Assembly (NCBI GenBank): GCA_947504725.1
Contig: CANNHN010000001.1
Coordinates: forward strand, 124,001-188,000
DNA length: 64,000 nucleotides
Source of the DNA: Bacteroidota bacterium
Lineage (GTDB): Bacteria > Bacteroidota > Bacteroidia > 2-12-FULL-35-15
Reading direction: 5' to 3'
Positions 33,823 to 43,126 of the stretch are shown here, piece by piece; position 1 is the first letter of the stretch; each line of letters starts with the position of its first letter. The notes below the pieces were generated by a model, which saw only the letters and a program-made list of their open reading frames with translations, ran no database searches and was not told where the DNA came from. A program made the translations under genes and the position numbers.

Positions 33823-36800
33823 ATGACACAAACAGCTCTCTCTAAACTAAAAATTACATTCATTGCCTTGATGCTCACTCTTGGTATCTCAAAGACAATG
33901 AATGCATCACACGTACAAGGTGGTAACATTACCTATACTTGTTTGGGTGGAAATCAATTTGAAGTAACCCTAGCGCTTTACCGAGATTGCGCTGGTGTTG
34001 CGGCCCCAACTTCGGTTTCCATTAACAGACGGTCGATAACATGCGGTATTAATGCCAATTTTGTGTTAAACAGAATACCCGGAACTGGAATTGAAGTAAC
34101 CCCAATTTGTCCTACAACAATTACACAGTGTTCAGGCGGTACATTGCCTGGAGTTCAAGAGTATATTTATAAAGGGATTGTAACTCTTCCTCCTTGTTCG
34201 GATTGGGTTTTGTCATATTCGTTATGTTGTAGAAATGCTTCGATTGGTACGATATCTGCACCTTCTTCTCAAAACATGTACATTGAAGCAACTTTGAATA
34301 ACTTAGCGTTTCCATGTAATGACTCACCAACTTTTACAAATCGTCCAGTACCATTTGTTTGTGTTGGGCAACCTTATTGTTTTAATAATGGTTCTGTAGA
34401 TCCTGATGGGGATTCTTTATCATATACCTTGATTCCTCCTCGTCATACTGCTGCAGTTAACGTAACATATTTGCCAGGGTTTTCTGCAACTCAACCTTTA
34501 ACATCATCTCCTCCTTGTACATTTAATCCTTTAACTGGAGATATGTGTGTAACTCCTACATTAATTCAAGTTTCAGTTTTTACAGTTTTAGTGAAAGAAT
34601 GGAGAGGCGGAATTTTGGTTGGAAGTGTTATGCGTGATATTCAAATTAGAACCATCGCTTGTTCTAATAACAATCCTTTTTTAAATGGTATCAATAATAC
34701 AGGAGCTTACACATTAAATGCTTGTATTGGCGCACCAATTACATTTACAATTCCTTCTTTTGATGCTGATGTAGCTCAAAACGTACTATTGTTTTGGAAT
34801 AGTGGAATACCAGGTGCAACATTTGTTGTTGGACCGGGGTCACGCCCAACTGCAACATTTACTTGGACACCTACAATTGCTGATGTTGGAGCTCTTCCAC
34901 ATTGTTTTACTGTCACGGTAGTAGACAATAATTGTCCTTTGCTCGGAAGTCAGACGTATTCATTTTGTATAACGGTTGGTGGTTTTACGGGAACGTCAGC
35001 CTCAACAAATGCGACATGTTCAGCCGCCAATGGTTCCGCCAGTGTTAATATAACGGGCGGTGTTACTCCACTTACTTATGCATGGACGCCTTCAGGTGGT
35101 TCAGGTTCAACAGCTACAGGTTTAACGGCTGGTTCTTATACTTGTACAGTTACAGATGCTTCTGGTTGTACGCGTACATATCCAGTTGTAATATCAACAA
35201 CTCCTGGTGGTGTAGCGTCTATCAGTTCTTTTGCAAATGTTACATGTAACGGAGCCTCTAATGGTACAGCTACTGTAACAATGGGTGGAACTGTTACTCC
35301 GGCTTTAACTTATTCTTGGTCGCCAAGCGGTGGAACTGCTGCAACAACAACAGGTCGTCCTCCAGGAACGTATACTGTTACAGTTACTGATGCAAATGGA
35401 TGTACCGCTACTGCGACTCAAATAATTACTCAACCTCCACCATTAACTGTTGCGCCAACATTTATAAATGTAAGTTGTTTTGGTGGAACAACCGGAACAG
35501 CGACAGCTACTCCAGTGGGCGGAACAGGACCATATACTTATTTATGGATACCAGGAGCATTTACTACCCCTTCTATTAGTTCATTATCTATTGGGTCTTA
35601 TACAGTAACTGTTACAGATTCTAGAGGTTGTACAGTAACAGGAACGGCAAACATTACTCAGCCTCCAGCTTTATCAATTACAAATACACCTGTAAATGCA
35701 AATTGCGGCTTAGCAAATGGTTCAGCTACTGTAGCGGGTTCTGGTGGTTTTGCACCTTATACTTGGTCTTGGTCAAACGGACAAACAGGTTCATCAGCAA
35801 CAGGATTATTAGCAGGAACATATACTGTAACTATTACTGATATAAATCTTTGTACAGCAACAGCACCTGTTACAATTGGTACAATTGCAGGTCCAACAGC
35901 ATCAATTATTTCTTCAATAAACGTTGCTTGTTTTGGTGGAAACACCGGAAATGCTACAATAGGAGTAACGGGTGGAACAGCTCCATTTACTTATTTGTGG
36001 AGCAATGGTCAAACAACTCCAACTGCTAATAACTTAGTTGCAGGAATTTATTCAGTAACGGCTACTGATGCAGCTGGATGTGTTGCATCAACAAGCATAA
36101 CAATTACTCAGCCTACCGTACTTATTGCAAATGCTGTAAGTACAAATCCAATTTGTTTTGGCAATACAAACGGAACTGCAACAGCTAGTGCTGTTGGAGG
36201 GACTACACCTTATAGTTATTTATGGACTTCAGCAGGAAGCCCTGTTACTTCTGCGGTATCAGGATTAGGTGCAGGAACTTATAGTGTTACGGTTACAGAT
36301 GCAAATGGATGTATTCAAAATGCGTCAGTAACTTTAGTAAATCCACCAACATTAAGTACAGCAATTACATCTACAAATGTAACATGTAATGCTGCTTGTA
36401 ATGGAACAGCTACTGCTACTGTTAGTAGTGGTACTCCACCTTATACTTATTTGTGGAACAACCCTGCAGCACAAACAACTACTACAGCAACTGGATTATG
36501 TGCAGGTAGTTTTACAGTAACTGTTGCTGATGCAAATGGCTGTCCTTCGCAAGGTGTAGCTACAATTACTCAGCCTGCTGTATTAACGAACGTGCTTTCC
36601 TCTTCAGGTAACTTAACCTGTTTTGGTGTTTGTACTGGATTCGCTCAGGTAACAGCTGGAGGTGGAACTGCACCTTATACTTATAACTGGTTACCAAGTG
36701 GTGGAACAACCGCAACAGCTTCAAGTTTATGTGCTGGTTCTTATACTTGTACTGTAACAGATTCAAGAGGTTGTACAGCTGTTGTTGTTGCAAATATTAC

Positions 36801-39714
36801 ACAACCAACACAATTGGTTGCAACTATTACAGGAACAAATATTAATTGTTTTGGTTCTTGTGATGGAACAGGTATGATTAACTTCTCTGGTGGTACTGCT
36901 CCTTATTCTTTCTTATGGACGCCTAGTATGCAAACAGTTTTTAATCCTAGTAACTTATGTCCTGGCGTTAATGCTGCAACGATAACCGATGCAAATGGAT
37001 GTGCAGTAACTGGAAGTGTCACTTTAACACAAGCATTTACTCCAGTGGTTGTTACAACTTCTTCAACAAATTCTAACTGTGGTCAATCAAACGGAGGAGG
37101 ATGTGCAGTAGTTGCTGGTGGATTACCTCCTTATTCTTATATCTGGAATGACTTAGCAGTTACAATGGCTCCTTGTATGGATTCAGTTCCTGCAGGTACA
37201 TATATTGTGGACGTAACAGATGCGAATGGATGTTTAGTAACATCTGTTGTAAACGTGAATGATATTCTTGCACCAACTGTTACTATTACTTCTCACACAG
37301 ATTTGTTGTGTAATGGTTTGACTAACGGAACTGCAACAACTACAATTGTTGGTGGTGTAACTCCTTACGCTGTTTTATGGACACCAGGTGGTCAAATAAC
37401 TCCAAACCCTATTAATTTAAATGGTGGAGTTCATACGATTACAGTTACGGATGCTGCAGGATGTATTTCTTCTCAATCAGTAACAATTTTAGAGCCACCT
37501 CCAATTAATCACGCTATTACTGGATTGAACCCTGTAAGTTGTTTTGGTGCTTGCAACGGATCAGCTACAGTAGTTGCCGCTGGTGGATTTGGAGCATTAA
37601 CTTTTGCTTGGAACGATCCTGCTGCTCAAACCACTACAACTGCTTCAGCATTGTGTGCTGGTACTTATGAGGTTGTCATTACTGATGCCAATGGTTGTAC
37701 CGCAATCGATTCAGCTTTAATTATTTCTCAACCTGGAACATTAGCAATTACTTCAAGTGCTTCAACAGACATTACTTGTTTTGGTGATAATGATGGAAGT
37801 ATAACAACAACAGTATCAGGTGGGACACCATTTTATGTTTTTGCTTGGACACCAAGCGGAGGTTCTGCACCAGTTGCGAACTCATTAGCTCCGGGTACTT
37901 ATACTTTAACCGTAACCGATCAAAATGGTTGTACAACAAATCAAAACTGGACAATTACTCAGCCAACACTTTTAACTGACACTTCTTCATTTGTAGCGAG
38001 TACTTGCGGATTGGCAAATGCAACTGCATTAGTAACAGCTGCGGGTGGATCTCCTGCTTATGTTTATCAATGGAATGACCCTGCGTTGCAAACAACTCCT
38101 ACAGCTACTGGTTTGTTAGCGGGAACTTATAGTGTCATTGTTACCGATTCACATGGTTGTACAACAACTCAAAATTATGTTATAAACGATTTATCTGGAC
38201 CAGTTGTCGATACTGTTACATCAACTCCTGTTTTGTGTTTTTCTGGAAATACGGGTACTGCAACTGTTGTAGTTGTTCCTGGAACAGGAACATTACCATT
38301 GGCATATGATTGGAATCCAGGTGCACAAATCAATTCAACTGCATCAGCTTTAACACAAGGAACCTATAGCGTTATTGTAACGGATGCAAATGGTTGTTCA
38401 GCAACTGGTGTAGTTGTTGTAAATGAACCGCCTTTGTTACAATTGTTTGTTAGTGTAACAGATACTATTTGTTATGGTGACACCTCTCAAGTTTATGCAA
38501 CTGCATCTGGTGGAACTCCGGCATATAATTATTTCTGGGTTGGAGCTTCTGGTTCTGGTTTCACTGGTTCTGGTCCTCATATGGTTATGCCAACTACAAC
38601 TACAATGTATACAGCTTTGGTTTTGGATTTAAATGGTTGTAGCGCTGGACCTTTGGATATGTTTGTTGTAGTTAAACCACCTTTGTCAGTTATCGCTAGT
38701 GATACTTCTGTTTGTGATGGTGATGCTGCTACAATTTATGCTACTGGAAGTGCAGGAAATGGCGGACCATATACATATTCTTGGGACAATGGGCCACTTA
38801 CACAATCACAAGTGGTAACTCCTCCAACTGGCTCATTAACAAACTATTATATTGTTACTGTTTCTGACGGCTGTTCAAATCCTATGTCTGATACTTCAAC
38901 GGTTACTATTAATCCTGGTTCAATCGGATTATTGCAAGGATTGCCAACTGATGGTTGTCAACCTTTAACAGTTGCTTTTACTGGTGCAAGTAATAATGGG
39001 GTAACTTATACTTGGGATTTTGGTGATGGAAATACAGGAACAGGAAGTAACGTTTCAAACACTTATTACAATTCAGGGGTATATGATGTGGAATTGACCA
39101 TTATAACTGCTTTTGGTTGCGAAACGATTATTGACAGTATAGCTTATATTAATGTATACCCTAAGCCTGTTGCTGATTTTATTGCATCACCTAATCCTGC
39201 ATCATCGCTTTCTCCATTAGTTTCTTTTACAGATATTTCTACAGTTGCATCTGAAATTACGAACTGGAATTGGAATTTCGGTGATTTGTTAAGCTCTACC
39301 GATATTTCATCTATTCAGCATCCTAATTATACATACTCAGTTGCTGGTTTTAATACTGTGACATTAATTGTTACAAATCAGTATGGTTGTGTTGACACGG
39401 CTCAACAGATTATTGAAATCATTGACGACTTCGTTTTCTTTGCGCCAAATGGATTTACACCAGATGGTGATGGTATAAATGACACGTTCCTTCCACAAGG
39501 TATAGGTTATGATATTAAAACGTTCAACATGATGATTTTTGATCGTTGGGGAAATATGATTTACCAAACAGACGATTGGAACAAAGGTTGGGATGGAAGA
39601 GCAAATGGTGGTTCTGAGATTGCTCAAATTGATGTTTATGTATGGAAGGTTCGTTTAAAAGATAACAAAGGAATTCCTCATAACTATATTGGACACGTAA
39701 CAATTGTAAAATAA
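33823..39714 (+). CDS. SprB-repeat giant surface adhesin with gliding-motility C-terminal domain
   Basis: Predicted cell-surface adhesin, 1963 aa, exported by T9SS. Signal sequence ~1-27. N-terminal region (~28-385) has cysteine-rich modules (CLGGNQFEVTLALYRDC and CCRNAS). About 15 SprB-type repeats of ~75-80 aa follow (~390-1560), each running from a C(F/N)G motif through a GG-x-PYTYLW core to AGTYTVTVTDANGC. Then come two Ig-like modules, two PKD domains (YTWDFGDGN; WNWNFGD) and the type B sorting domain (APNGFTPDGDGIND, FDRWGNMIYQT, WDGRANGG, VYVWKVRLKD). SprB moves along the surface of gliding flavobacteria; here gliding is inference. An adhesin and a PorP/SprF gene follow, as in sprB-sprF loci. 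Confidence 0.93.
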   Translation: MTQTALSKLKITFIALMLTLGISKTMNASHVQGGNITYTCLGGNQFEVTLALYRDCAGVAAPTSVSINRRSITCGINANFVLNRIPGTGIEVTPICPTTITQCSGGTLPGVQEYIYKGIVTLPPCSDWVLSYSLCCRNASIGTISAPSSQNMYIEATLNNLAFPCNDSPTFTNRPVPFVCVGQPYCFNNGSVDPDGDSLSYTLIPPRHTAAVNVTYLPGFSATQPLTSSPPCTFNPLTGDMCVTPTLIQVSVFTVLVKEWRGGILVGSVMRDIQIRTIACSNNNPFLNGINNTGAYTLNACIGAPITFTIPSFDADVAQNVLLFWNSGIPGATFVVGPGSRPTATFTWTPTIADVGALPHCFTVTVVDNNCPLLGSQTYSFCITVGGFTGTSASTNATCSAANGSASVNITGGVTPLTYAWTPSGGSGSTATGLTAGSYTCTVTDASGCTRTYPVVISTTPGGVASISSFANVTCNGASNGTATVTMGGTVTPALTYSWSPSGGTAATTTGRPPGTYTVTVTDANGCTATATQIITQPPPLTVAPTFINVSCFGGTTGTATATPVGGTGPYTYLWIPGAFTTPSISSLSIGSYTVTVTDSRGCTVTGTANITQPPALSITNTPVNANCGLANGSATVAGSGGFAPYTWSWSNGQTGSSATGLLAGTYTVTITDINLCTATAPVTIGTIAGPTASIISSINVACFGGNTGNATIGVTGGTAPFTYLWSNGQTTPTANNLVAGIYSVTATDAAGCVASTSITITQPTVLIANAVSTNPICFGNTNGTATASAVGGTTPYSYLWTSAGSPVTSAVSGLGAGTYSVTVTDANGCIQNASVTLVNPPTLSTAITSTNVTCNAACNGTATATVSSGTPPYTYLWNNPAAQTTTTATGLCAGSFTVTVADANGCPSQGVATITQPAVLTNVLSSSGNLTCFGVCTGFAQVTAGGGTAPYTYNWLPSGGTTATASSLCAGSYTCTVTDSRGCTAVVVANITQPTQLVATITGTNINCFGSCDGTGMINFSGGTAPYSFLWTPSMQTVFNPSNLCPGVNAATITDANGCAVTGSVTLTQAFTPVVVTTSSTNSNCGQSNGGGCAVVAGGLPPYSYIWNDLAVTMAPCMDSVPAGTYIVDVTDANGCLVTSVVNVNDILAPTVTITSHTDLLCNGLTNGTATTTIVGGVTPYAVLWTPGGQITPNPINLNGGVHTITVTDAAGCISSQSVTILEPPPINHAITGLNPVSCFGACNGSATVVAAGGFGALTFAWNDPAAQTTTTASALCAGTYEVVITDANGCTAIDSALIISQPGTLAITSSASTDITCFGDNDGSITTTVSGGTPFYVFAWTPSGGSAPVANSLAPGTYTLTVTDQNGCTTNQNWTITQPTLLTDTSSFVASTCGLANATALVTAAGGSPAYVYQWNDPALQTTPTATGLLAGTYSVIVTDSHGCTTTQNYVINDLSGPVVDTVTSTPVLCFSGNTGTATVVVVPGTGTLPLAYDWNPGAQINSTASALTQGTYSVIVTDANGCSATGVVVVNEPPLLQLFVSVTDTICYGDTSQVYATASGGTPAYNYFWVGASGSGFTGSGPHMVMPTTTTMYTALVLDLNGCSAGPLDMFVVVKPPLSVIASDTSVCDGDAATIYATGSAGNGGPYTYSWDNGPLTQSQVVTPPTGSLTNYYIVTVSDGCSNPMSDTSTVTINPGSIGLLQGLPTDGCQPLTVAFTGASNNGVTYTWDFGDGNTGTGSNVSNTYYNSGVYDVELTIITAFGCETIIDSIAYINVYPKPVADFIASPNPASSLSPLVSFTDISTVASEITNWNWNFGDLLSSTDISSIQHPNYTYSVAGFNTVTLIVTNQYGCVDTAQQIIEIIDDFVFFAPNGFTPDGDGINDTFLPQGIGYDIKTFNMMIFDRWGNMIYQTDDWNKGWDGRANGGSEIAQIDVYVWKVRLKDNKGIPHNYIGHVTIVK

Positions 39715-39791: not shown

Positions 39792-39799
39792 TAACTTTG
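39792..39799 (+). promoter_or_regulatory. -7 box of the second adhesin (TAACTTTG)
   Basis: Exact TAnnTTTG, with TTTA (39767-39770) 21 bp upstream as a -33 candidate. It overlaps an in-frame TTG codon at 39797, so the ATG at 39827 is the real start. Confidence 0.6.
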
Positions 39800-39826
39800 C
39801 AAAAAAAATCGCAAGAAATAAATAGT

Positions 39827-41722
39827 ATGAAACAACTTACTCAAAGTTTTTTACTTATTCTTTTTTTTACTTTTTCATTTTCTACGGTTGATGCACAATC
39901 CGTTGGAGGTACAACTTCTGGTGCCGCAACTTATTGTTCAACAACAAATGCTGGCTTTGTTACTGTTACAGGTTATGTTGGTTCAATTACTAATTGGCAA
40001 TCTTCTACCGATGGAGGACTAACTTGGAACAGCATCCCAAATACTACAGCCAATCAAACTTATTTTAATTTAGCACAAACTACATGTTACCAGGCAGTCG
40101 TACAAAATGGCGTATTTCCGCCAGATACGTCTTCAACAGTTTGTATTACTATTTATCCGCCTAGCGTTGGAGGAACAATAAGTGGAGGAGGAACTTTTTG
40201 TGCTGGTACAGGTGCTGGTACATTAACATTATCGGGCTATACCGGAAGTATATTGTATTGGCAATATTCAATTGATGGTGGTTCAACATGGACAACAATT
40301 GCAAATACGACTCCAACAGAAAATTATTTAAATATTACTACAAATACTTTGTATTGGGCTATTGTTCAAAATGGTGTGATGTGTCCAACAGATACATCCA
40401 GTCAAGTTTCATTTATAATAGATCCAGCAACTGCAACAGGAAGTATAAGTGGGGCTGCAAGTGTTTGTGCTACTGCGAATAGTGGAACATTAACGTTGTC
40501 GGGATACACAGGAACTATTTTAGGTTGGTCGTATTCAATTACTTCTGGTGCTACTTGGGTGCCTATTGCAAACACAACCAATACGGAAACATATTTAAAT
40601 TTAACCACTACAACTTGGTATCAAGCAATTGTACAAAGTGCAAGTTGTCCAGCGGATTCAGCGGCATATGTAATTATTGATGTTAGTCCGCCAACTGTTG
40701 CGGGAACGATTACGGGTGGTGGTGTTTTTTGTGGAACAGCAGCAACAGGCACATTAACGCTAGCAGGATATACAGGAAGTATAGTAAGTTGGATTTCTTC
40801 TACAACCAGCGGTGCAAGCTGGACGGCAATTTCGAATACAACATCAACAGAAACATATACAGCTTTAGCGGCAACAACATGGTATTCAGCAATTGTACAA
40901 AGTGGTGGTTGTCCTGCTGATACTGCAAATATCGAAATTGTTGATGTTGCACCAAATACAGTAGCAGGCACAATATCAAGTAGTGCAACCGTTTGTTCGG
41001 GTACAAATACAGATTCACTTGTATTATCAGGAAATATTGGAAGTGTGTTAGGTTGGATTTCTTCAACTGACGGAGGAATAACTTGGCTGCCAATTTCAAA
41101 TACGACAACCACAGAATTATATGCTGGACTTACAACAACAACAATATATGCAGCAATTGTTCAAAGTGGTTCTTGCGCTATTGATACTGCAGGTTCGGTT
41201 ACTATTACAATATTAGCTCCTTTTCCAGTGTTTGCTGGAAATGATACAAGTATAAATGCTGGACAAACATTGGTGTTGAATGGAACAGGAACAGGAACGC
41301 CTATTTGGACTCCAGGAGCAACCTTGAGTAGCTCAACTGTGTTTACTCCAACTGCAACACCAATAAATACAATAACCTATTTATTATCTGTAACAGATAT
41401 TAATGGTTGTGTAAATACGGACGCTATCACTGTTACTGTTATTCCACTTTCTTTTAATGGAATGGTGTCTAATCTATTTACTCCCAATGGTGATGGAATA
41501 AATGACAATTGGTATGTAGAAGGAATATTAAATTTCCCTGAGAACGAAGTATTTGTATACAATATATATGGAAACGAAGTGTATACAAAAAAGGCGTATG
41601 CTAACGATTGGCAAGGAACATATAATGGTTCTGAATTGCCTGATGGTACTTATTTCTATGTTATTCGTTTTGATAGTCCTTCAAAAATTATTAAAGGATC
41701 AATTGATATTTTAAGAAAATAA
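39827..41722 (+). CDS. T9SS adhesin with Ig-like repeats and gliding-motility C-terminal domain
   Basis: Secreted surface protein of 631 aa from the preferred ATG. Signal peptide ~1-24 (ending VDAQ). Five tandem repeats of ~85-90 aa follow, each starting (S/T)VxGTISGxxxxC, passing through TLSGYTGSIxxWxxS and T-x-x-W-x-x-I-x-N-T-T, and ending in YxAIVQxxxCPxDT. A PKD-like module (GNDTSINAGQTLVLNG) and a type B sorting domain (NLFTPNGDGINDNW, YNIYGNEVYTK, LPDGTYFYVIRF) close the protein. It lies between the giant adhesin and the PorP/SprF gene; the latter's ATG abuts its stop, so they are co-transcribed. Probably an alternative cargo of the same secretion route. Confidence 0.92.
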   Translation: MKQLTQSFLLILFFTFSFSTVDAQSVGGTTSGAATYCSTTNAGFVTVTGYVGSITNWQSSTDGGLTWNSIPNTTANQTYFNLAQTTCYQAVVQNGVFPPDTSSTVCITIYPPSVGGTISGGGTFCAGTGAGTLTLSGYTGSILYWQYSIDGGSTWTTIANTTPTENYLNITTNTLYWAIVQNGVMCPTDTSSQVSFIIDPATATGSISGAASVCATANSGTLTLSGYTGTILGWSYSITSGATWVPIANTTNTETYLNLTTTTWYQAIVQSASCPADSAAYVIIDVSPPTVAGTITGGGVFCGTAATGTLTLAGYTGSIVSWISSTTSGASWTAISNTTSTETYTALAATTWYSAIVQSGGCPADTANIEIVDVAPNTVAGTISSSATVCSGTNTDSLVLSGNIGSVLGWISSTDGGITWLPISNTTTTELYAGLTTTTIYAAIVQSGSCAIDTAGSVTITILAPFPVFAGNDTSINAGQTLVLNGTGTGTPIWTPGATLSSSTVFTPTATPINTITYLLSVTDINGCVNTDAITVTVIPLSFNGMVSNLFTPNGDGINDNWYVEGILNFPENEVFVYNIYGNEVYTKKAYANDWQGTYNGSELPDGTYFYVIRFDSPSKIIKGSIDILRK

Positions 41723-43126
41723 ATGAAAAAAATTGTTGCTATACTCGTAGTGTTTTTATTTGCATCGGCTATTAATGCTCAGCAGATAGGGATGTATAGT
41801 CATTATTTTTATAAGCCGATGGTTTATAACCCTGCTTTTACAGGAACAAGTGATGCCACCAATGTGATGTTTGTAAGTCGAGCGCAATGGTCTGATTTTA
41901 AAGGAGCACCTCAATTAAATATTGCAACATTTGATGGAAGTTTGATGAGTAAAAAAGTAGGATTAGGTGTGATGTTGATGAGTGATAGAAAAGGGATTAC
42001 AAATAGAATCGGAGGAGAAGTATTTTATTCTTATCGATTAAATATCAATGATGATATGCATTTGCAGTTTGGTGTTTCTGCTGGAATTGTTGATCACCAA
42101 ATTGATTATTCTAAAGCATTAGTTGAAACAGCGAATGACCCAACTTTATTTACAGATTCTCAGCGCAAAACAGTATTCAATGGAAACGCTGGATTAGCTT
42201 TTGTATGGAAGGATTTAGAATTTGGTGTTGCTGTTCCACAAGTGGTTGGAAATAGAGTGAATTATGTGGATACTAGCAATGTTCGAGGCTACTATACGCA
42301 GGCTCGTCATTACATGGGTTCATTGAAATATAAATTTTATATCAATAAAGAAAAAGGATTATCCATCACTCCTTTAGCGTTAGTTCGTTTTGTTCCCAAT
42401 ACGCCTTTTCAATACGATGGGAATGTGAATTTCGAATGGCAAGATAAATTTTGGATTGGAGCAACCTATAAGAGTGGTTATGCTGTTGGTGCAAACGTTG
42501 GATTTTGTATTCATAAACAATTGTTTGTTGGGTATTCTTATGATTTTATTATTGGAGATATAGGTGAATACTCAGGAATGGCTCATGAGTTAATGATGAA
42601 TTATAAATTTGGGAAAAATAAAAAAGCAGAAGTTGTTGAAGCACCTAAAGATGATGGGGCTTATACAAAGCGAATGGATAGTTTAAAAATGGAATTAGAT
42701 GCTAGTCAAGCTAAATTAAAAGAATTGAGTGACAAAGTAGACCAATTGTCGAAACAAGGATCAGTTCCTCCTTCCGAAAATAAAAATTCTCAAGTAAAAG
42801 ATAGTAGCGCTATCAAAAGAGTTGAAGATGGAGTATTAATTATAACAAATCAAAAATCAGAGTTTAAAGATGAAGATGGTTATTTGCCTCCGAAAGGATA
42901 TTATGTTGTAATTGGAACCTATTTTTATAGAGATTTAGCAGAGGCAGAAACAAAAAGGTTTAGAGAAAAAGGGTATCAAACATCTGATTGGGTGTATTCA
43001 GGACCTAAAAACTTCAATTATATCTTTATGTTTAAATGTGTTACCAAAGAAGAAGCCCTAGAGAAGTTGAAAATAGCGAATCAGGCAGGTGTAAAAGATG
43101 CTTGGTTGCAGGAATTAATAGATTAA
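41723..43126 (+). CDS. PorP/SprF-family T9SS outer-membrane protein with C-terminal SPOR-like domain
   Basis: Outer-membrane beta-barrel of the PorP/SprF family, the type that helps secrete or anchor particular T9SS cargo. Signal peptide 1-19 (ending NAQQ). The barrel covers ~20-300, with the typical opening GMYSHYFYKPMVYNPAFTG and strands such as IGGEVFYSYRLNI and LFVGYSYDFIIGDIG. A coiled coil (~315-340, SLKMELDASQAKLKELSDKV) leads to a SPOR-like domain (~385-467: GYYVVIGTYFYRDLAEAE and KEEALEKLKIANQAGVKDAW). SPOR domains bind denuded glycan strands of peptidoglycan, so this barrel may be tethered to the wall. Its ATG abuts the adhesin stop. Its stop overlaps the small minus-strand gene by 4 bp. 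Confidence 0.9.
   Translation: MKKIVAILVVFLFASAINAQQIGMYSHYFYKPMVYNPAFTGTSDATNVMFVSRAQWSDFKGAPQLNIATFDGSLMSKKVGLGVMLMSDRKGITNRIGGEVFYSYRLNINDDMHLQFGVSAGIVDHQIDYSKALVETANDPTLFTDSQRKTVFNGNAGLAFVWKDLEFGVAVPQVVGNRVNYVDTSNVRGYYTQARHYMGSLKYKFYINKEKGLSITPLALVRFVPNTPFQYDGNVNFEWQDKFWIGATYKSGYAVGANVGFCIHKQLFVGYSYDFIIGDIGEYSGMAHELMMNYKFGKNKKAEVVEAPKDDGAYTKRMDSLKMELDASQAKLKELSDKVDQLSKQGSVPPSENKNSQVKDSSAIKRVEDGVLIITNQKSEFKDEDGYLPPKGYYVVIGTYFYRDLAEAETKRFREKGYQTSDWVYSGPKNFNYIFMFKCVTKEEALEKLKIANQAGVKDAWLQELID

Follow-up and report, generated by a model that had tools for sequence, protein, structure and literature searches.

The window (the whole stretch of 64,000 nucleotides that was analysed) contains a gene coding for a giant surface adhesin, with a possible partner a short distance downstream. 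The features that delimit the locus are:

33823-39714, forward strand: open reading frame of a giant T9SS type B adhesin, 1,963 aa, with matches to PF13573, PKD_4, CHU_C and TIGR04131
34660-34992, forward strand: Ig-like domain ahead of repeat 1
35017-38397, forward strand: 15 contiguous SprB repeats, delimited by the repeat alignment from the first start cysteine (aa 399) to the last ANGC cysteine (aa 1525)
38470-39390, forward strand: two atypical repeats and two PKD domains
41723-43126, forward strand: PorP/SprF-family outer-membrane protein (PF11751, E 6e-65), two genes downstream of the adhesin

SprB repeats and T9SS adhesins are already known. In this protein the order is an N-terminal region, one Ig-like domain, the 15 SprB repeats, the two atypical repeats, the two PKD domains and a type B sorting domain. 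The PF13573 profile matched it over 14 stretches (E 1.6e-108, 354.4 bits against a cut-off of 28), which places the repeats in the SprB family, and the C-terminus matched TIGR04131 with 48.3 bits (cut-off 35) and CHU_C with 54.7 (cut-off 27), as a T9SS type B substrate does. No open reading frame of at least 150 aa was found on the opposite strand of the repeat array. We have modelled repeats 6-10 with AF2 and obtained a confident all-beta chain (pLDDT 96, pTM 0.73). Its best solved matches were Ig-like tandems and, together with the strand ladders recovered from coevolution (see below), this identifies the stalk as a tandem of Ig-like beta sandwiches.

The presence of a PorP/SprF-family gene nearby is in keeping with a SprB-type gliding adhesin, and its product is probably the adhesin anchor. 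In Flavobacterium johnsoniae, SprF is reported to have a twin-cysteine periplasmic tail (PMC12635249). The tail of the window protein (41723-43126) has no twin cysteine; it ends in a SPOR-like region (19.7 bits, just under the Pfam cut-off of 21), through which the adhesin might be held on peptidoglycan instead of a moving track. A similar C-terminal sequence, also without the twin cysteine, is found in the neighbour of the related adhesin at locus L073. Between the adhesin and the SprF-like gene (39797-41722) lies another T9SS type B protein. Its Ig-like units, ~85 aa long, are repeated, and every one carries conserved cysteines of its own.

We refer to the cysteine at the start of each repeat as A and to the ANGC-type cysteine as Z. 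The alignment confirmed the claim of the original prediction that every one of the 15 repeats has both, A at aa 399-1472 and Z at aa 449-1525. It had also been noticed that four repeats start with CxxxC, and these are repeats 7, 8, 9 and 12 (CNAAC, CFGVC, CFGSC and CFGAC). Just as described, among the 15 the cysteine in L-C-[AP]-G is limited to the same four. The second cysteine of CxxxC (A+4) is at column 13 of the repeat alignment and the L-C-[AP]-G cysteine at column 46. A different extra pair had been assigned to the repeat with CGQSNGGGC, repeat 10. A distinct pair is indeed present there, but not with the members proposed, as the first cysteine of this motif is the ordinary start cysteine and the pair is formed by C1094 and C1118, five residues along the same B-E ladder as the CxxxC/LCxG pair. 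Overlooked at that time were two further repeat-like units (C1550-C1606 and C1631-C1684), a pair C361/C382 in the domain preceding the array, and two lone cysteines. The additional cysteines of the 15 repeats are located as follows:

35143-35145, forward strand: lone cysteine C441 in repeat 1, F strand, column 52, motif YTC
36397-36501, forward strand: optional pair of repeat 7, C859 (36397-36399) with C893 (36499-36501), B-E ladder, putative disulfide
36631-36732, forward strand: optional pair of repeat 8, C937 with C970, putative disulfide
36748-36750, forward strand: lone cysteine C976 in repeat 8, column 52, motif YTC
36859-36960, forward strand: optional pair of repeat 9, C1013 with C1046, putative disulfide
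37102-37176, forward strand: alternative optional pair of repeat 10, C1094 with C1118, columns 18 and 41, B-E ladder
37552-37656, forward strand: optional pair of repeat 12, C1244 with C1278, putative disulfide

Cysteines at column 52 occur in ~2% of repeats, without an evident partner, and L073 has lone ones in the same two repeats as C441 and C976. These two residues could possibly be free thiols or take part in inter-molecular contacts.

By simple combinatorics a perfect match in 4 of 15 repeats has a probability of 1/1365, a figure that takes no account of the fact that the repeats are not independent. Actually, the match within the window proves little, because the repeats are related to each other and their order has been inherited with an orthologous C-terminal block:

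36130-38649, forward strand: conserved C-terminal block, repeats 6 to 16, type order.2223.2 in the window protein (2, 13/46 repeat; 3, 18/41 repeat)

Near the C-terminus, the order 2222-3-plain-2, kept by most orthologues and in several families, was found at L111, L059, L122, L070, L076, L128, L151 and L154, and the reduced order.2223.2 in the window protein and L073. The number of N-terminal repeats, in contrast to this conserved arrangement, varies widely. The conservation of the order suggests, from sequence comparison, that the optional pairs mark special segments of the fibre. It also speaks for shared ancestry as the whole explanation of the co-occurrence, by which the four repeats would be copies of one CxxxC ancestor with no functional coupling of the two cysteines; with the order inherited, the four are not independent trials.

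The larger sample speaks against that explanation. It comprised 264 proteins with 3,757 repeats, filed under 113 genome labels, and a few of the named loci come from a shared genome. A first sample was drawn from 35 genomes of the same genus and class, and a second one from 80 named loci across the phylum, including Flavobacterium, Chryseobacterium, Chitinophaga, Runella and Saprospiraceae, with 103 proteins. Over the 3,757 repeats, cysteines were present at both columns 13 and 46 in 757 cases, at a single one in 8 and 7, and at neither in 2,955, these counts exceeding the number of independent events since the repeats are kin. The 15 single cases were read individually. Three had an ambiguous base at column 13, in seven the alignment had shifted the late cysteine by one or two columns (..CP..), three had a substitute cysteine in the C-C' region and in one a deletion misaligned the first cysteine, leaving L220 as the sole plain exception. 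The covariation proposed as a check in the original prediction is therefore found, and with 757 double cases versus one unexplained single, neither position varies independently of the other among homologues. The pair was seen in 107 proteins and 52 genome labels, 86 times flanked by plain repeats on both sides, and among repeats with an identity of 60% or more, 209 pairs were of opposite state, both cysteines differing together. Within the orthologous block, the window and L073 lack the two cysteines in repeat 6, where the other orthologues possess them, and at the +3 repeat they are found in L128 only. This joint switching at orthologous positions, with single-cysteine intermediates almost absent among 3,700 repeats, leaves very little probability for ancestry without coupling.

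In order to find out whether these positions are in contact irrespective of the cysteines, we used the 2,921 repeats without any of the extra cysteines for a coevolution analysis (2,211 column pairs). The pair 18-41 ranked 2, 51 with Z+5 ranked 3, 37-42 ranked 6 and 13-46 ranked 25. The mean coupling had a sharp peak at i+j=59 for strands B and E, and 13-46 and 18-41 are directly opposed positions of this one antiparallel B-E ladder, while 51 with Z+5 belongs to the F-G ladder, at its peak register. The first three optional pairs (13-46, 18-41 and 51/Z+5) are thus at exactly opposed ladder positions, where two side chains face each other. The occurrence of the cysteines themselves followed the same rule. 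At 18/41 there were 27 repeats with both and 1 and 0 with a single one, at 37/42 there were 13 with both and 0 and 3 with a single one, and a cysteine at column 51 was always accompanied by a G-strand cysteine near Z+5 (45 with, 0 without). The 13/46 and 18/41 pairs never appeared in one repeat (0/28). Both the mutual dependence of the cysteines and the contact of their positions are apparent from the sequence statistics. The optional second disulfide that had been suggested inside selected repeats has gained ground here, from 757 versus 1 and from the contact detected in cysteine-free repeats, so that an intradomain disulfide at columns 13-46 appears well supported. The data also support a small repertoire of alternative intradomain pairs beyond CxxxC/LCxG.

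The use of these pairs differs between proteins. In the same genome as the window, a SprB-repeat protein of 2,869 aa (L031, G000:C3:123000-137000) has CxxxC/LCxG in nearly all of its 29 repeats, versus 4/15 in the window. A cluster of several similar SprB-repeat proteins (L033 and L034, G000:C3:174500-194500) has in each of them adjacent repeats of type 2 and of type 6, the latter with both the 13/46 and the 37/42 pair in one repeat.

CxxxC with two more cysteines is superficially like a four-cysteine metal site, and it could be argued that the CxxxC and LCxG cysteines bind a metal together with A and Z, with no disulfide. We consider this very improbable. The 13/46 pair is present in repeats without A (repeat 1 of L128 and repeat 1 of L076) or without Z, so the four cysteines are not one set. 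Besides, the other optional pairs, 18/41 and 51/Z+5, are simple two-residue cross-strand pairs, and the protein bears an export signal for the cell surface.

The two universal cysteines are a different matter. Both are present in ~97% of the repeats, as could be expected if A and Z of each repeat formed an internal disulfide, to which a second one from CxxxC to LCxG would be added in some repeats. This is how the original prediction had it, and the optional-pair half of that explanation is supported by the data above. The internal A-Z bond did not survive the analysis of losses. Within arrays there were 36 repeats that had lost only Z, 46 that had lost only A and none that had lost both; over the two samples, 0 to 2 double losses stand against these 82 single ones (p 0.08 in the first sample and 1.0 in the second). 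The losses were coupled across the joint between repeats i and i+1. Among 3,366 unambiguous joints, 3,341 kept both A(i) and Z(i+1), 12 had lost both, 12 had lost A and kept Z and one had lost Z and kept A. All 12 joints with A lost and Z kept carry a substitute cysteine in the linker (this class comes from 5 proteins, with 8 of its joints in 2 proteins of one genome), and four more apparent exceptions were due to an ambiguous base at A. When shifts from -3 to +3 were compared, only A(i) with Z(i+1) behaved as a pair, and Z-only losses at shifts 0, -1, -2 and +2 numbered 36, 33, 29 and 10. Shuffling within arrays gave a mean of 1.05 co-losses and a maximum of 5, versus the 12 observed. In the second sample, joints without a linker cysteine had 8 cases with both lost, 0 discordant and 1,770 with both kept (p 4e-22). 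The ends of the arrays behaved as joint pairing would have it, since the proposed partner is absent there: in the first sample Z was lost in the first repeat of the array in 17/21 cases (p 1.5e-14) and A in the last repeat in 14/25 (p 8e-9).

One protein, L144_-1_4218 (L144, G058), has eight consecutive repeats without the start cysteine, with a linker cysteine and a 51/Z+5 pair instead; by its cysteine pattern, this would be an alternative stapling scheme within one array. A cysteine at column 51 as stand-in for a missing A was considered and rejected, as column 51 always goes with a cysteine near Z+5 and it is the linker cysteine that replaces A.

The couplings between neighbouring repeats reproduced the pattern of the losses. 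The strongest joint-specific ones, all at variable columns, were x10-y58 (z 17.6), x8-y58 (z 15.4) and x7-y58 (z 11.7), and they connect the residues flanking A(i) to the residue two before Z(i+1). In the reverse direction nothing was seen at the flanks of A and Z, and inside one repeat the same flanking positions ranked 419, 501 and 1,556 of 2,211, that is, they were uncoupled. Near-invariant columns (9, 60, 32 and 56) were excluded as evidence in the cysteine-conserved subset, where symmetric values show their coupling to be an artefact of invariance. According to the strand ladders, A is next to Z+10, where strand G ends, and Z is where this strand begins. Within a domain the two cysteines consequently occupy opposite poles, with A(i) turned towards the N-terminal pole of domain i+1. 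One observation counts against pairing across the joint: columns 9-60 rank 20 of 2,211 in the single-repeat coupling table, although these columns are near-invariant and their coupling falls back to ranks 111-135 of 8,001 when the neighbouring repeat is taken into account. Taking the losses, the couplings and the geometry together, A(i)-Z(i+1) pairing probably replaces pairing within the repeat, and we regard the internal disulfide as improbable.

Applied to the window protein, the pairing of A(i) with Z(i+1) predicts a continuous series of inter-domain bonds, which we call staples. One of them serves as example:

36385-36774, forward strand: putative staple between the start cysteine of repeat 7, C855 (36385-36387), and the ANGC cysteine of repeat 8, C984 (36772-36774)

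The rule could be run from C301 in the Ig-like domain to C1856 in the last PKD domain, and all cysteines from aa 280 onwards were paired except C441 and C976. The individual pairings given here are those predicted from the sequence. In the Ig-like domain ahead of repeat 1, C301 would be stapled to C449, C361/C382 would be a pair of the F-G type and C280 the likely partner of C371. Beyond the 15 repeats the pattern would continue through the atypical repeats and the PKD domains as C1550-C1684, C1631-C1766 and C1712-C1856. The last PKD domain has no A cysteine, which fits the staple model because the end of the chain should have none.

We find it very likely that the stalk of this SprB family combines universal inter-domain staples with optional intradomain cross-strand disulfides. 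It would be a T9SS-exported chain of ~77-residue Ig-like domains with two kinds of disulfide. The universal one would link the C-terminal pole of domain i to the N-terminal pole of domain i+1, with the start cysteine in the A-B turn of the former and the ANGC cysteine immediately ahead of strand G in the latter. The optional ones would be at columns 13-46, 18-41, 51 with Z+5 and 37-42. We infer the disulfide nature of these pairs, their formation in the mature fibre and their mechanical effect. Against the staples it has to be counted that the co-loss of A and Z comes from 12 joints, that C441 and C976 are left over, that neither DsbB nor VKOR was detected in this genome and that the DsbA-family match is weak.

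SprB-type repeats build adhesins on which gliding Bacteroidota pull, and such fibres must bear load. The backbone from Z(i) to A(i+1), ~25 residues, would connect every second staple, and the shortest covalent path would come to ~12.5 residues per domain instead of 77. By arithmetic on this presumed connectivity, the path would be ~4.5 nm per domain, versus ~28 nm for an unstapled, unfolded domain of 77 residues. The unfolding of a domain would then barely lengthen the fibre, the load would be shared by two interleaved covalent paths and one cut in the backbone would leave the fibre connected. The optional pairs would tie opposed strands in the core, stabilising single domains against unfolding or proteolysis. 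That they rigidify selected segments of the fibre, as first proposed, is plausible, although the inter-domain staples are more likely to be the main source of stiffness.

The pattern of staples and, in selected repeats, intradomain pairs appears to span about a hundred related bacterial genomes. We lean, with some reserve, towards the broader view that throughout Bacteroidota the SprB-type adhesins are fibres with a covalent braid, with staples, two load paths, near-zero extensibility when domains unfold and tolerance to single backbone cuts, and that the optional disulfides follow a conserved order towards the C-terminus, where the fibre is anchored to the cell. If this is true, the fibre would be a tape of almost no extensibility, as opposed to a string of beads that can unfold, which would bear on how the motor transfers force to the surface and on the oxidation and export of these proteins. 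It also provides a sequence rule for domain pairing applicable to thousands of unannotated repeat proteins.

Among known systems, SprB of F. johnsoniae (PF13573) shares with the window adhesin the repeat family, the T9SS type B sorting domain and a nearby PorP/SprF-family gene. Our literature search, which covered openly accessible papers, found no account of repeat cysteines or inter-domain disulfides in SprB-type adhesins. The closest solved fold is that of GhpA, the grappling-hook protein of Aureispira (PDB 9flv, 9flw, 9flp, 9fly and others; structural Z 13.7 over 356 residues, rmsd 7.3). It is also the closest solved structure by sequence profile (E 1.6e-39, ~20% identity), and its aligned stretches have the start and the GC-type cysteines, as in the window adhesin. 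The deposited GhpA structures may already contain inter-domain bonds of this kind. The adhesin of Mobiluncus mulieris (PMC10619420) is, like the one in the window, a giant stalk of tandem Ig-like domains with covalent cross-links. In M. mulieris the cross-links are confined to the domains, which are joined by a flexible linker (PMC10619420), whereas the universal link of the window adhesin would be between domains. The window adhesin does not behave as an intradomain cross-linked stalk, as universal cysteines of its type depend on the neighbouring repeat and not on each other. The gliding machinery of Bacteroidota already provides functional disulfides between SprF and GldK, which join different proteins in the periplasm (PMC12635249). 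These belong to the same export and motility system as the window adhesin, in which the proposed bonds would lie inside the adhesin itself.
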